A stretch of 55,179 nt of DNA from Eggerthellaceae bacterium (lineage in GTDB: Bacteria; Actinomycetota; Coriobacteriia; Coriobacteriales; Eggerthellaceae), in the NCBI GenBank assembly GCA_015062605.1, contig SUUI01000012.1, positions 1-55,179 on the forward strand. Reading direction: 5' to 3'. The notes below the pieces were generated by a model that did not search any database, was not told the DNA's origin, and worked only from the letters and a program-made list of their open reading frames with translations. Shown in pieces: positions 3,766 through 8,744 of this stretch. The first letter of the stretch is position 1. Each line of letters opens with the position of its first letter. The position numbers were made by a program, and so were the translations under genes.

Positions 3766-5148
3766 TTACGCCAAAAGATTCGTCAACTCGGTAATCGACT
3801 CGAGTTCCTCCAGACGATTGACAGTCTCTATGACCTTGTCGGCCTGCTCGCGCGTAAGCTTGCCCGCGACGTTCTTATAGAACTTGTCGAGGATCTCCTC
3901 CTCAGTCATCGGGTTGTGATAGATGTTGCCCTTCACGTTCTCCGAACGTGCGAAGTACACGCTTCCATCTTCCATGATGACCTCGACATTGCCGGTGACG
4001 TACTCATCGGGCGGCAGACTCGGCGAGATCTCGATCTTATCGATGAGGTCGGCGATCACCGGGTCTTTGACAGCCTCAAGGCTTGCCATGTGCTCGGGAC
4101 GCACATCGTGCTTCGCTAAGGCGCACGCTACCGTGAAAAAGATGCTGAACGCAGCAGAGGGCTGGAAGTCTTCCGTGACTTCCCACGGCGTGCAGCAGAA
4201 GCCCGCAGCGGTCTTCGGCGTGGTATGCGCGATGATCTTTTTGATCTTGGCGGGATCGGGATTGTGCTCTTTGACAATCTCCATCGTCGCATCGATATAA
4301 GGATGTGTCACGCGGCATGAGCTCCACGGCTTGATGACGATATCGGCATAGAACACCTTGCCCAAGTCCTCGCAGAGAAGCTCAGGTTTCTGGGCATCAC
4401 CGCAGAATAGGAAGAAGTAGCCCTTCTTGCCACCGAATGCATCGTATGCGGCTGTGAGCCCGCGCTTCGCCAAATCAACGGACAGGAATGCGTTGCGTGC
4501 CGCGAACGCCATGGGGAATTTGAACGCCAGCGTCTTGTCATTGACGTTGTCCATCGAGCTGCCAAGCGTGTTCAGGTCGATGCCGTATGCGTTGCGCATC
4601 TGCTTCTCATCCAAACCCGAAAGCTTGCCGACGATCGTCGTGGCGCCAAGGCCATTGATTGTATTCGTGTTATCCCAACCCGCATATACGTTGAAACCGC
4701 TCGATGCACCCAGACGCGCCGTCACGTCATCGCCAAGCGCTAGCGCCGTGATGAAATCTTTGCCGCTTGCGCCCACGCGCTCTGCCGCAGCCAGCGCGGC
4801 AGGCACCGTCGTGCCAGAAATGTGGCCTGCACTGCAGAGCTTGCCCTTGTTCTCGCACTGCACCGCCTCGAAATCCCAGGAACGCATCTCGAAGCTGTTG
4901 ATGAACGCTGCTTCAGCAGCCGATAGCTTCTTGCCGCGGAACAGTGCGGTCGCACCGTTCTCTCGATCCTCGTAACCCTTCACCAAATCGAAGAGCTCAT
5001 CGCACATCGGAGCGCCCGTGCCAATGGCCATGCAGCCGATGCCATCGAGCAGGCGTACCTTCAACCTCGAAACCGTGAAATCGTCAAGGTCCTCGAACTT
5101 CGTCGAAACCACGTATGCGCTGATTGTCTCTGTCATGTTCTCGCTCAT
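3766..5148 (-). CDS. MmgE/PrpD family protein
   Basis: 460 residues, the usual length of the MmgE/PrpD family (PF03972), which includes 2-methylcitrate dehydratase, cis-aconitate decarboxylase and iminodisuccinate epimerase. Family features visible are RLLDGIGCMAIG near the N-terminus, the GHISGTTVPAALAAAE segment, a DVTARLG helix and KPWSSCRVTHPYIDA. The last corresponds to the active-site region before the C-terminal domain. The substrate cannot be read from sequence. ATG 5148 has AAGGGG six bases upstream and is preferred to an in-frame TTG two codons earlier. It is third in an operon with a Mo/W oxidoreductase and its Fe-S protein, so it probably acts on the product or precursor of that enzyme. 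Similar PrpD genes next to Mo enzymes would support a hydro-lyase or isomerase step. Confidence 0.87.
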   Translation of the reverse strand: MSENMTETISAYVVSTKFEDLDDFTVSRLKVRLLDGIGCMAIGTGAPMCDELFDLVKGYEDRENGATALFRGKKLSAAEAAFINSFEMRSWDFEAVQCENKGKLCSAGHISGTTVPAALAAAERVGASGKDFITALALGDDVTARLGASSGFNVYAGWDNTNTINGLGATTIVGKLSGLDEKQMRNAYGIDLNTLGSSMDNVNDKTLAFKFPMAFAARNAFLSVDLAKRGLTAAYDAFGGKKGYFFLFCGDAQKPELLCEDLGKVFYADIVIKPWSSCRVTHPYIDATMEIVKEHNPDPAKIKKIIAHTTPKTAAGFCCTPWEVTEDFQPSAAFSIFFTVACALAKHDVRPEHMASLEAVKDPVIADLIDKIEISPSLPPDEYVTGNVEVIMEDGSVYFARSENVKGNIYHNPMTEEEILDKFYKNVAGKLTREQADKVIETVNRLEELESITELTNLLA

Positions 5149-5184
5149 AGGCAACCCCTTTCTTCTTGATTGCGAAAAGGCGGA

Positions 5185-5523
5185 TTATTGGTTCGAGATG
5201 ACGTAGACCTTACCCGTCATCTCGCTAGCCTTACGTGCCAGCTCTAGGAAATCACCGTACTCGATGCACTGCGCCAAGCATACATGCGCGCATGCGGCGT
5301 CACCGCCAGCCGCGATACGGTCGGCGCACATGTCGCACAAAGACGTGAGGATGGGCGCATTGTCCCAATTCCAGTGCTCTTCGTCGATTTGGAACGGCGG
5401 CACTTCGAGCATCTTGATGCCCCACTTGCCCAAGCCGATGCCATGCTCGTTGCGGCAGGCGATCTCGCAGCTATGGCAACCCGTGCAATATTCGTAATTG
5501 ATAAGCAATGCTGGTTTAGTCAT
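5185..5523 (-). CDS. Small 4Fe-4S electron-transfer subunit of the Mo/W oxidoreductase
   Basis: 112 residues with nine cysteines placed for two 4Fe-4S clusters: C13-x2-C16-x2-C19-x3-C23 near the N-terminus and C63-x2-C66-x11-C78-x3-C82-x3-C86 in the second half. This resembles the beta subunits of DMSO-reductase-family enzymes but is half their usual size and has lost the other two cluster sites. No signal peptide or membrane segment is present. The start has GGAGGA seven bases upstream. It lies 24 bp behind the catalytic subunit and 36 bp before the PrpD gene, all on one strand, so it is very likely the electron-transfer partner of the catalytic subunit in the cytoplasm. Confidence 0.85.
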   Translation of the reverse strand: MTKPALLINYEYCTGCHSCEIACRNEHGIGLGKWGIKMLEVPPFQIDEEHWNWDNAPILTSLCDMCADRIAAGGDAACAHVCLAQCIEYGDFLELARKASEMTGKVYVISNQ

Positions 5524-5547
5524 TTTGCTTCCTCCTTGCGCATCCGA

Positions 5548-7791
5548 TTAGCCATCGAGGCCTTGGGCCTTGTAGATCTTGCACATCATCTCTTTGTAAA
5601 TCGAGCCGAAGCCCAGAGGGTTCACGCAGAAGTGAGGCAGGAGCAAGTTGACATTGGACTTCCATACGCCGAACAGGTTCGGCTCTGCGCCCTCCTGCTC
5701 CGGATACCACCAACCATGCTCGCAATGGACGACGCCCTCTTTGATAACCTCGGAAACCCATGCCTTCATCTGGCATTTGCCGAGCCAGTTCTCGATCGTG
5801 ACCCAATCGCCATTCTGGATGCCGTATTTCTCGGCATCGGCAGGATGGATGGTGACCTTCGCCCACGGATCGATCTCGCGCAAAGATGCGATCATGCGAT
5901 GCTCGGAATGGAACGACGTGTACTTGCGACCGCCGGTGGTCAAGATCAGCGGATACTCCTCCGCCAACTCCGGATGGCTGTACTTGCTGTAATAGGGCTC
6001 GTGATAGTACGGCAACGGATCCTCGCCCCACATCGGGTAGAGAAGAGAGTACAGCTCGATACGCCCAGACGGGGTGTTGAAGCCCGGTTTCCCATCACCG
6101 CGGGAAAGTCCCTTCTCGTACTTCTTATAGGTATACTCACCCTGGTACACGCCCATATGGCGCAGCTCATCGAACCCGAAATCATACGAGGCGTGCAGCT
6201 GCCTGTCGAAGAAGTCGACGGCATCCTTGTAATCCCATGCGTCAGGATTCAACCTCTTGCCAAGCTGGATGCAGAACTCGATGTCGGAACGGACGCCCGG
6301 ATTGTCAATCGCCTTGTTGATAGCTGCGACGAAGAACGGATTGCGTCCGTAGTGCGGCAGCACCACGCCGTCAAGCTCGGGGAAGGTCGCCACAGGCAAA
6401 AAGACATCTGCCAAAGCGACCGCGGTCGGTGTGAGGAACAAATCGCGGCACACCGTGAATTCCATCTTCTTGAGGCCCGCGTACCAACGCTGCGGCTGCA
6501 CGTTGTTCGTCGGCGAGATGATGTTCGTGCTCTGGAGCACCGCCATACGCAGCTTGATCGGCTCATCGGTCTCGAGGCACTCGAGCGTGATATCGGGATT
6601 GCATACCCACTGCGAACGATCGGCAGCCGGGAAGTTCTTCGCACCAAGGCGGTTCTCGAATTGGCCTGGAGCCAGATTCGAACGCGTATCGACGCGCCAC
6701 TTGCCCAAGAACGTAGAAGGCTGGCCGACGGTAACGCCGCCGGGGACGTCGACATAGCCGCAGATGGCGAGCATGGCGAGCGCCGCATGGCTTGCCTGGC
6801 CACCCGTCGTGGTCTGATCGAATGTCAAGCCCCACATGAGAGAGGACGGCTTGTTGGTCGCGAACTGGCGGGCAACCCGATAGATGAGATGCTCGGGAAT
6901 CTCGCAGATCTCGGCAGCGCGTGAAGGCGGATACTCGCGGCAGCGCTCTGCGAACTGCTCGAAGCCGTAGCACCACTTGTCGACGAAATCGTGATCATAG
7001 AGGTCCTCCTCGATGATGACGTTGAGGAAGGCAAGCGCGAGCGCCGCATCGGTGCCGGGACGTAAGCGAATCGCCGTATCGGCATGGGCGCCGAGCCATG
7101 TGATGCGCGGATCGATCGTGATGATCTTGGAACCGCGCTTCATCAAATCGATCAGCGAGTGGCCGAAGAAGCCGTCGCCGTTGGAGGTTAAGGGCATCTT
7201 GCCCCAGCTGATGATGTATTTGGGCACCTCGTAACCGGGATGATCATAGCTATCCGGGAAATACGATGCGAAGTCAAGCTCCGGATAGCCCGTACCGAAC
7301 ACGAACTCGGCGACTGCGCAACGCGGGCCATAGCAGGAATAACCGCTGATGCCCATAAGCGTCGTCGATGTACGGAACACGCCGAACGCCAAAGGCGGCG
7401 CATACAGCGCGGCCTGACGACCAGTACCCTGGATGACGACGATCGAGTCCATGCCGTACTTGCCTTGGATCTCGCGCGCCTTCTCGGCGATCAAATCAAG
7501 CGCATCATCCCACGTGATGGGCTCCCATTTGTTCTCACCGCGCTCGCCTGCACGCTTAAGCGGCGTGGTAATGCGCTGAGGATGGTTGAGATACTCGGGC
7601 AAAGTCAGGCAACGAACGCACAGACGGCCATTGGTCACCGGGTGCTCCTCGTCGCCGTCGACATTTACCAGTTTGTTGTCGACCACATGCAATTTCAGGC
7701 CGCATCCGACCGGATGGCATCCAGGGGCTGACCAGGCGCATGTCCTCACCCAATAATCGTTGTCAGTACCCCACTTCCATTGATCTTTCAT
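5548..7791 (-). CDS. Molybdopterin (Mo/W-bis-MGD) oxidoreductase, cytoplasmic, acetylene-hydratase/transhydroxylase-like
   Basis: 747 residues of the DMSO reductase superfamily. The N-terminal Fe-S region has C18-x6-C25-x4-C30 and C58-x2-C61, in the setting GCHPVGCGLKLHV...GRLCVRC. A GYSCYGPRCAVAE segment (Cys153, Cys158) lies where the metal-ligating residue normally sits. The molydopterin-dinucleotide-binding domain begins near residue 620 (YPLILTTGGRKYTSFHSEHR). There is no Tat signal, so it works in the cytoplasm. Length, missing signal and small Fe-S partner recall acetylene hydratase and pyrogallol transhydroxylase, which catalyse non-redox or internally redox-balanced reactions; the substrate is unknown. 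ATG 7791 follows GGGAGAAG. First gene of a three-gene operon, with a promoter-operator candidate upstream. Confidence 0.88.
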   Translation of the reverse strand: MKDQWKWGTDNDYWVRTCAWSAPGCHPVGCGLKLHVVDNKLVNVDGDEEHPVTNGRLCVRCLTLPEYLNHPQRITTPLKRAGERGENKWEPITWDDALDLIAEKAREIQGKYGMDSIVVIQGTGRQAALYAPPLAFGVFRTSTTLMGISGYSCYGPRCAVAEFVFGTGYPELDFASYFPDSYDHPGYEVPKYIISWGKMPLTSNGDGFFGHSLIDLMKRGSKIITIDPRITWLGAHADTAIRLRPGTDAALALAFLNVIIEEDLYDHDFVDKWCYGFEQFAERCREYPPSRAAEICEIPEHLIYRVARQFATNKPSSLMWGLTFDQTTTGGQASHAALAMLAICGYVDVPGGVTVGQPSTFLGKWRVDTRSNLAPGQFENRLGAKNFPAADRSQWVCNPDITLECLETDEPIKLRMAVLQSTNIISPTNNVQPQRWYAGLKKMEFTVCRDLFLTPTAVALADVFLPVATFPELDGVVLPHYGRNPFFVAAINKAIDNPGVRSDIEFCIQLGKRLNPDAWDYKDAVDFFDRQLHASYDFGFDELRHMGVYQGEYTYKKYEKGLSRGDGKPGFNTPSGRIELYSLLYPMWGEDPLPYYHEPYYSKYSHPELAEEYPLILTTGGRKYTSFHSEHRMIASLREIDPWAKVTIHPADAEKYGIQNGDWVTIENWLGKCQMKAWVSEVIKEGVVHCEHGWWYPEQEGAEPNLFGVWKSNVNLLLPHFCVNPLGFGSIYKEMMCKIYKAQGLDG

Positions 7792-7856
7792 CTCGCTTCT
7801 CCCCCTATTCTCTCGCGCTTCAATTCCCCTTGAAAAGAAACCGAATCTGTTAGTCC

Positions 7857-7886
7857 GATTGTACAATGCGAGACGGTCTCGCACAA
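7857..7886 (-). promoter_or_regulatory. Promoter candidate for the Mo/W enzyme operon
   Basis: On the minus strand TTGTGC (7886-7881) is followed by an 18-base spacer and TACAAT (7862-7857), about 65 bases before the ATG of the Mo/W enzyme. The spacer contains the 17-bp palindrome 7867-7883, as expected of a repressor-controlled promoter. A TACAAT also occurs on the plus strand at 7897-7902, facing the amidohydrolase gene, without a clear -35 box. Confidence 0.5.
7867..7883. promoter_or_regulatory. 17-bp palindrome, candidate operator shared by divergent genes
   Basis: TGCGAGAC-G-GTCTCGCA is a perfect inverted repeat with 8-bp arms and one central base. It lies between the minus-strand Mo/W operon and the plus-strand amidohydrolase gene and inside the -35/-10 spacer of the minus promoter candidate. 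It has no T-run and is far from gene ends, so it is better read as a protein-binding site than a terminator. The regulator is not encoded next to it. Confidence 0.55.
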
Positions 7887-7949
7887 TTGAATACGCTACA
7901 ATGACTGCGGCAAATATCCGGTGCGTTACCGTCTGAAAGGATCGCCCTT

Positions 7950-8744
7950 ATGGCTATCGTCGATATCCATGCGCACGTATATCCCGAGAAGATCTCCGAG
8001 AAGGCCGTAGCTGCAACAGGCCGTTTCTATAACGTCGAGATGTCCGGCAATGGCGCTCCCGAATTCCTCGCCGAAGTGAATCGCACCACGCCGATCACCC
8101 ATACCCTCATCTGCTCTGTGGCGACCACGCCCAAGCAGGTCGCAAGCATCAACACCTTCATCTCTAGTTCATGCGAAGACAACCCGACGCTTTTCGGGCT
8201 GATGGCCATGCAGCAGGATGTGAAAGATCCGGAGGCTGCCATCGAGGAAGGCATCGCGCTGGGTCTCAAGGGCATCAAGATCCACCCCGACATCCAACAG
8301 GTGAACCTTGACGATGATCGCCTCATGCGCGTATACGAAATCGCGGAGAAAAAGGGCCTTCCCATCATCATGCACACGGGCGATTACCGTTACGATTTCA
8401 GCCATCCGCGCAGGATGAAGCGCGTCTTGCATGAGTTCCCGAACCTCGTCGTCGATGCCGCGCACTTCGGAGGCTGGTCGATTTACGACCTCGCTACCGA
8501 ATTCTTGGAGGATGAGCGCTGCTTTGTGGATACATCGAGCGCGATGATGTATCTGGGACGCCGCCGTGTTCGCGAGCTAATCGAGCTTTACGGACCCGAC
8601 CGTGTGATGTTCGGAAGCGATTTTCCCATGTGGGACCCGAAACGCGAGTTCGACTTCCTGAAAAGCCTGGAATTGCCTGCCGCCGACTTCGAGAAGATCA
8701 CGTGGCGCAATGCCGAGCGCTTCCTGAATATGTCTATCGATTAA
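7950..8744 (+). CDS. Amidohydrolase family 2 protein (ACMSD/gamma-resorcylate decarboxylase-like)
   Basis: 264 residues, a TIM-barrel metal-dependent hydrolase of the amidohydrolase-2 family (PF04909). Metal and catalytic positions visible are DIHAH near the N-terminus, GIKIHP, IIMHTGD, VDAAHFGG and FGSDFPMWDP near the C-terminus. Members either hydrolyse C-O/C-N bonds or decarboxylate aromatic and related acids; which applies cannot be decided from sequence. AAAGGA lies ten bases before the ATG. It is transcribed divergently from the Mo/W enzyme - Fe-S - PrpD operon across about 160 bp holding a palindrome, so a shared regulator and pathway are likely (inference). No signal peptide. Confidence 0.85.
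   Translation: MAIVDIHAHVYPEKISEKAVAATGRFYNVEMSGNGAPEFLAEVNRTTPITHTLICSVATTPKQVASINTFISSSCEDNPTLFGLMAMQQDVKDPEAAIEEGIALGLKGIKIHPDIQQVNLDDDRLMRVYEIAEKKGLPIIMHTGDYRYDFSHPRRMKRVLHEFPNLVVDAAHFGGWSIYDLATEFLEDERCFVDTSSAMMYLGRRRVRELIELYGPDRVMFGSDFPMWDPKREFDFLKSLELPAADFEKITWRNAERFLNMSID

Follow-up and report, generated by a model that had tools for sequence, protein, structure and literature searches.

An operon pairing a dehydroxylase-family Mo/W enzyme with an MmgE/PrpD-family protein recurs in Eggerthellaceae and two other families

The DNA analysed here (hereafter the window, 55,179 nucleotides) is contig C29 of a 1.70-Mb genome, 98% complete, of an Eggerthellaceae member from the ruminant gut. 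A sequence-only reading of this stretch had described a three-gene operon divergent from an amidohydrolase-2 gene, and all four open reading frames were recovered as such (Table 1). The genes of the operon, designated MoL, FeS and PrpD, are separated by 24 and 36 bp (ORF positions), and the amidohydrolase gene lies 158 bp from MoL. MoL starts with an ATG served by a GGGGGAG ribosome site, and the ribosome sites of both MoL and FeS are good. A pattern scan revealed no convincing promoter or terminator, and the operon holds no transporter or regulator gene of its own.

Table 1. Genes of the window operon and its neighbour, small genes of sister loci, and gene arrangements with other PrpD copies
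Feature	Locus	Position	Strand	Basis
MoL, cytoplasmic bis-MGD Mo/W enzyme, 747 aa	window	5548-7791	minus	ORF and Pfam
FeS, small ferredoxin-like partner, 112 aa	window	5185-5523	minus	ORF and conserved Cys
PrpD, MmgE/PrpD-family protein, 460 aa	window	3766-5148	minus	ORF and Pfam
Amidohydrolase-2, Amidohydro_2 (PF04909)	window	7950-8744	plus	Pfam; judged outside the module
Small conserved genes of sister MoL-FeS loci	L002	6929-7219		
Small conserved genes of sister MoL-FeS loci	L003	8150-8446, 8795-9253		
Small conserved genes of sister MoL-FeS loci	L073	8240-8584, 11638-12156		
Other PrpD subfamily, MoL, GPH-type transporter, trigger-factor-like gene	L124, L129, L146			
Two MoL-FeS sets flanking two PrpD	L125			
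Aromatic-acid MFS-MoL-FeS-DcuC-PrpD	L143 (same gene kinds in L134)			
MoL-FeS-LigB/AMMECR1-PrpD-TRAP	L130			
Two MoL-FeS sets, two PrpD, DASS transporter	L087			

MoL carries the Molybdopterin, Molydop_binding and Molybdop_Fe4S4 Pfam domains, all above cut-off, and the absence of a twin arginine from its first 40 residues bears out the earlier statement that the Mo/W enzyme has no Tat signal. Its cluster cysteines are Cys18, (Cys25), Cys30 and Cys58. The GCH-x3-CG motif singled out in the sequence-only reading is indeed present, but Cys25 is not invariant, being an Asp in a sister clade. Among solved structures, the best relative of MoL is acetylene hydratase of Pelobacter acetylenicus (PDB 2e7z), matched over almost the whole length with an E-value of 4e-86, followed by thiosulfate reductase (E 5e-55). 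In the alignment with acetylene hydratase, Cys153, which is invariant among 60 homologues, falls within the metal-ligand region, and it is the predicted metal ligand of MoL. FeS contains nine cysteines, of which eight are conserved in 97-100% of 69 FeS partners and would fit two 4Fe-4S clusters. The partner had been called half-size, which is literally so, though a length of 112 residues is typical rather than peculiar in this family, whose members here mostly span ~107-126 aa; almost every MoL locus examined encodes such a two-cluster partner next door.

The window genome yields 28 MoL match segments, corresponding to ~20 MoL genes, as is typical of such Coriobacteriia, and Gordonibacter pamelaeae 7-10-1-b (G067) yields 42; G. 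pamelaeae paralogues, including a candidate beside an Eah-like gene, are 41-55% identical to MoL. The proteins that cluster with MoL of the window in a tree of the family are those of L090, L002 and L091, all PrpD-linked, and the next protein out is a 79% identical paralogue from the same genome (contig C16) with no PrpD beside it, followed by that of L130. The sister group of the window clade includes MoL_A; orthologues of MoL_A and MoL_B are present on other contigs of the window genome. Acetylene hydratase falls clearly outside the Coriobacteriia clade. Two small conserved genes, one for a zinc-ribbon-like protein of ~100 aa and one for a protein of ~150-170 aa that matches no Pfam family, accompany the sister MoL-FeS loci (Table 1) and are absent from the window operon.

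Gordonibacter dehydroxylases have been described as soluble reductive enzymes with a small 4Fe-4S electron carrier; they carry no Tat signal, are smaller, adjoin the gene of this small 4Fe-4S protein and have acetylene hydratase as closest relative (PMC7028382, eLife 2020), and each such strain has more than 30 members that are still uncharacterised (PMC12771579, the urolithin paper). The bis-MGD fold, the absence of a Tat signal, the adjacent small 4Fe-4S partner, the many paralogues per genome and the closeness to acetylene hydratase are common to MoL and to Dodh, Cldh, Gp Hcdh and Eadh1-3 (PMC7028382, PMC11585353, PMC12771579). Matched through this published description, MoL-FeS is assigned to the Gordonibacter-type (soluble) catechol dehydroxylase family, with an activity that is predicted from sequence. 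The window operon differs from this type by its co-directional PrpD gene and by the lack of adjacent MFS and LuxR genes, which are frequent, not defining, in Gordonibacter; MFS genes occur in the relatives L080-L085 and L116, and a LuxR-type gene lies beside MoL_A in L080. The papers found on Gordonibacter-type dehydroxylases do not mention PrpD. The eam (ellagic acid) cluster of Gordonibacter likewise combines dehydroxylases with a non-redox partner for the same aromatic acid, this partner being the amidohydrolase-type Eah and not PrpD.

PrpD contains the MmgE_PrpD_N and MmgE_PrpD_C Pfam domains, both above cut-off, and its profile search returned IDS epimerase (6e-84), cis-aconitate decarboxylase (2e-80) and 2-methylcitrate dehydratase (2e-30). 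A true 2-methylcitrate dehydratase was rejected on a score of 38.5 bits against an NCBIfam equivalog cut-off of 950. In alignments with these enzymes and with methylsuccinate isomerase (PMC12290011, PMC7347537), the active-site positions of the family are retained, with the acid (E94), the base His (H109), Tyr (Y155), two Lys (K210, K273) and Cys (C278); both domains together with E94, H109, K210 and K273 place the protein in the MmgE/PrpD superfamily. Its differences are a Glu in place of Asp at position 94, corresponding to Glu91 of methylsuccinate isomerase, an insertion before His109, and Asp159, which replaces a His found at position 150 of IDS epimerase and also in bsIRG1. This His is a carboxylate contact in docking models, and the classical dicarboxylate pocket is thus altered. 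Judging from these residues, the chemistry of the window PrpD is likely of the MmgE/PrpD family type, and its substrate is probably none of those known for the family.

Orthologues of this PrpD, defined by at least 47% identity, were found in 15 genomes, 13 from Eggerthellaceae and two from other families of the class (f10, f15). FeS/MoL adjoins PrpD in all 15, hence in three families, within ~150 bp except in L091, where two small genes bring the distance to 1.4 kb. In L091/L003 (1-500 and 9250-10459), the PrpD gene is split across two contig ends with the matching inverted motif GGTAACCAAAGGCAATA and looks interrupted by a repeated element. Gordonibacter (including G. pamelaeae 7-10-1-b) and relatives (L080-L083, L089) share a block in which MoL_A-FeS diverges from MoL_B-FeS-PrpD-MFS-MFS, L084 and L085 showing as much of it as fits on their contigs. 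In a genome of another family, L116 combines MoL_A, MoL_B and PrpD with an MFS. Since it is conserved in relatives, the three-gene block is not a product of chance. A phylum-level search at an E-value of 1e-230, a cut-off that distant cases could escape, gave no match outside the lineage.

The pairing extends beyond this PrpD clade. PrpD-family genes are present in 29 of 138 Eggerthellaceae genomes. Overall, 30 of 52 PrpD copies have MoL/FeS no more than 5 kb away. In three well-assembled genomes with full MoL lists, two of them close kin so that the effective number is smaller, six of seven PrpD copies were near MoL against 0.71 expected (p 9e-6). No fewer than eight changes of the PrpD-linked label are required on the MoL tree, indicating that the pairing was repeatedly gained or lost, and the arrangements with other PrpD copies are diverse (Table 1). 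The transporters encoded beside PrpD-MoL pairs (DcuC with an aromatic-acid MFS, DASS, TRAP DctPQM and an OFA-like MFS) point to carboxylates, each of these families being broad and none being represented in the window operon. The earlier suggestion that the Mo/W enzyme, the Fe-S protein and PrpD form a unit is thereby strengthened, by the 15 genomes and by other PrpD subfamilies alike, and its carboxylic-acid substrate agrees both with what is published on MmgE/PrpD proteins and with the transporters encoded nearby. We found no paper, on Gordonibacter or on dehydroxylases more widely, that describes the pairing. MoL-FeS-PrpD is a real and conserved module that is new in combination, the enzyme families themselves being known.

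Two further features were observed at these loci. A fused protein of LigB (a ring-opening dioxygenase) and AMMECR1 is encoded between FeS and PrpD, ahead of the TRAP transporter, in L130 (5838-7247), whose host is an anaerobe. A trigger-factor-like protein of ~435 aa lies repeatedly beside PrpD in dehydroxylase clusters (L124, L125, L129, L135, L144 and L146).

We favour, with reasonable though not strong confidence, a module in which a soluble, electron-consuming MoL of the bis-MGD dehydroxylase family, its FeS partner and PrpD act on the same imported compound, probably one plant acid bearing a dicarboxylate-type substructure. In the proposed order of steps, a plant-derived hydroxylated or aromatic acid would be imported into the cell, and PrpD would isomerise, dehydrate or decarboxylate its carboxylate-bearing part via an enolate, with His109 as the putative base and Glu94, Lys210 and Lys273 holding the carboxylates. 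The ferredoxin-like, two-cluster FeS would then feed electrons to MoL, whose metal, presumably held by Cys153, would reductively remove a hydroxyl group. The sequences themselves show the genes present, the spacing of the operon, the family memberships, the conserved residues and the recurrent linkage of PrpD to MoL; the direction of the redox step, the sharing of one substrate, the sequence of steps and the dicarboxylate-type substructure are inferred. Several observations speak against this reading: the operon carries neither transporter nor regulator, Asp159 alters the classical dicarboxylate pocket, the closest MoL paralogue, on contig C16, has no adjacent PrpD, so that PrpD is not needed by every member of this MoL clade, and in Gordonibacter PrpD sits behind MoL_B and not behind the window-like MoL_A.

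Other explanations were weighed against this module. The sequence-only reading had leaned towards non-redox chemistry for the Mo/W enzyme, and MoL could accordingly hydrate or transhydroxylate an unsaturated or polyhydroxylated acid in the manner of acetylene hydratase. Its nearest solved relative and the correspondence of Cys153 to the metal-ligand region would suggest this. Acetylene hydratase, however, is a single protein without separate Fe-S subunit, whereas MoL is accompanied by FeS almost everywhere examined. Asp13 is essential in acetylene hydratase, where it sits after the second cluster Cys, between the second and the third; it is absent from MoL, which reads C25-H-P-V-G-C30 at this place and has no Asp between these two cysteines. 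On both counts an acetylene hydratase is disfavoured, as is a pyrogallol-phloroglucinol transhydroxylase, whose large subunit is matched only weakly (E 2.6e-10) and over residues 82-286 rather than the whole length. The closest published kin are reductive dehydroxylases (PMC7028382). The lack of an Asp13 equivalent and the two-cluster FeS partner encoded next door favour redox chemistry, and we regard a non-redox MoL as quite unlikely.

Alternatively, PrpD could lack any metabolic link to MoL-FeS. The latter would then be a catechol dehydroxylase of the usual kind, and PrpD either a passenger or a catabolic enzyme in its own right that shares the same hypervariable islands by coincidence. Dehydroxylase genes do occupy gene-rich variable clusters, 22 of the 52 PrpD copies are not near any MoL, and the window genome itself has a PrpD copy (C7) without adjacent MoL. 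This reading nevertheless seems doubtful to us in view of the tight co-directional operon kept over three families for one PrpD clade, of the pairing having formed anew with five or more other PrpD subfamilies and of the enrichment at p about 1e-5. At the other extreme, all four genes, including the amidohydrolase that had been proposed as fourth member, could serve one pathway in which the amidohydrolase would be, like Eah from the ellagic-acid cluster, a decarboxylase. In this genus it lies next to the operon in divergent orientation (L090, 98% identical), and the related Eah lies in a dehydroxylase cluster of Gordonibacter (L127). Its distribution, however, differs from that of PrpD: it occurs in 94 of the 138 available Eggerthellaceae genomes and 37 of 48 genera, almost always as a single copy, with identities outside the window genus of mostly 47-61% and a CNNM/CBS membrane-protein gene as usual neighbour, against 29 of 138 genomes for PrpD. 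It is separated from the PrpD operon by ~25 kb in G067 and G069 and by ~405 kb in G058, and lies on another contig in G086. The operon, or a paralogous copy of it, adjoins other genes in L002, L003 and L073. An unrelated MoL ~3 kb from the amidohydrolase in G067 is expected by chance, because in ~10% of such genomes it lies within 5 kb of some MoL. Co-occurrence of the four genes in other genomes thus held for MoL, FeS and PrpD and failed for the amidohydrolase only. We rejected it as a module member and consider a four-gene pathway highly improbable; the gene is judged to belong to the core of the lineage, with the operon happening to adjoin it in this genus, and their proximity is local to this genus. 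A ~510-aa family without Pfam domain was also seen near dehydroxylase genes, at the Eah-like locus of G. pamelaeae (L127:9852-11387) and on contig C7 of the window genome (L074:13611-15158).

More speculatively, and against our own expectation, MmgE/PrpD enzymes and bis-MGD dehydroxylases could make up an anaerobic route, recurrent and so far undescribed, by which PrpD would prepare an aliphatic or alicyclic hydroxylated acid that the Mo/W enzyme would then dehydroxylate reductively. The acid might resemble tartrate, citrate or quinate, to name examples, or be conjugated to a catechol; literature on quinate and shikimate in the rumen returned nothing on genes. If true, this route would extend the dehydroxylase family beyond catechol rings. 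For most dehydroxylases of the Coriobacteriia, a substrate has yet to be assigned, and a non-redox partner that is recognisable by its sequence offers a handle for doing so. Occurring in human Gordonibacter and in ruminant bacteria, the PrpD partner narrows the search to acids that suit an enolate-forming enzyme.

Finally, proteins of the URO-D family are encoded downstream of PrpD loci, in L080 (17812-18831, weakly methyltransferase-like), L085 (1-687 and 1532-2524) and L088, the latter also encoding an activator-like ATPase of ~1280 aa; together, these URO-D proteins and the ATPase may be a sign that methoxylated substrates are O-demethylated.
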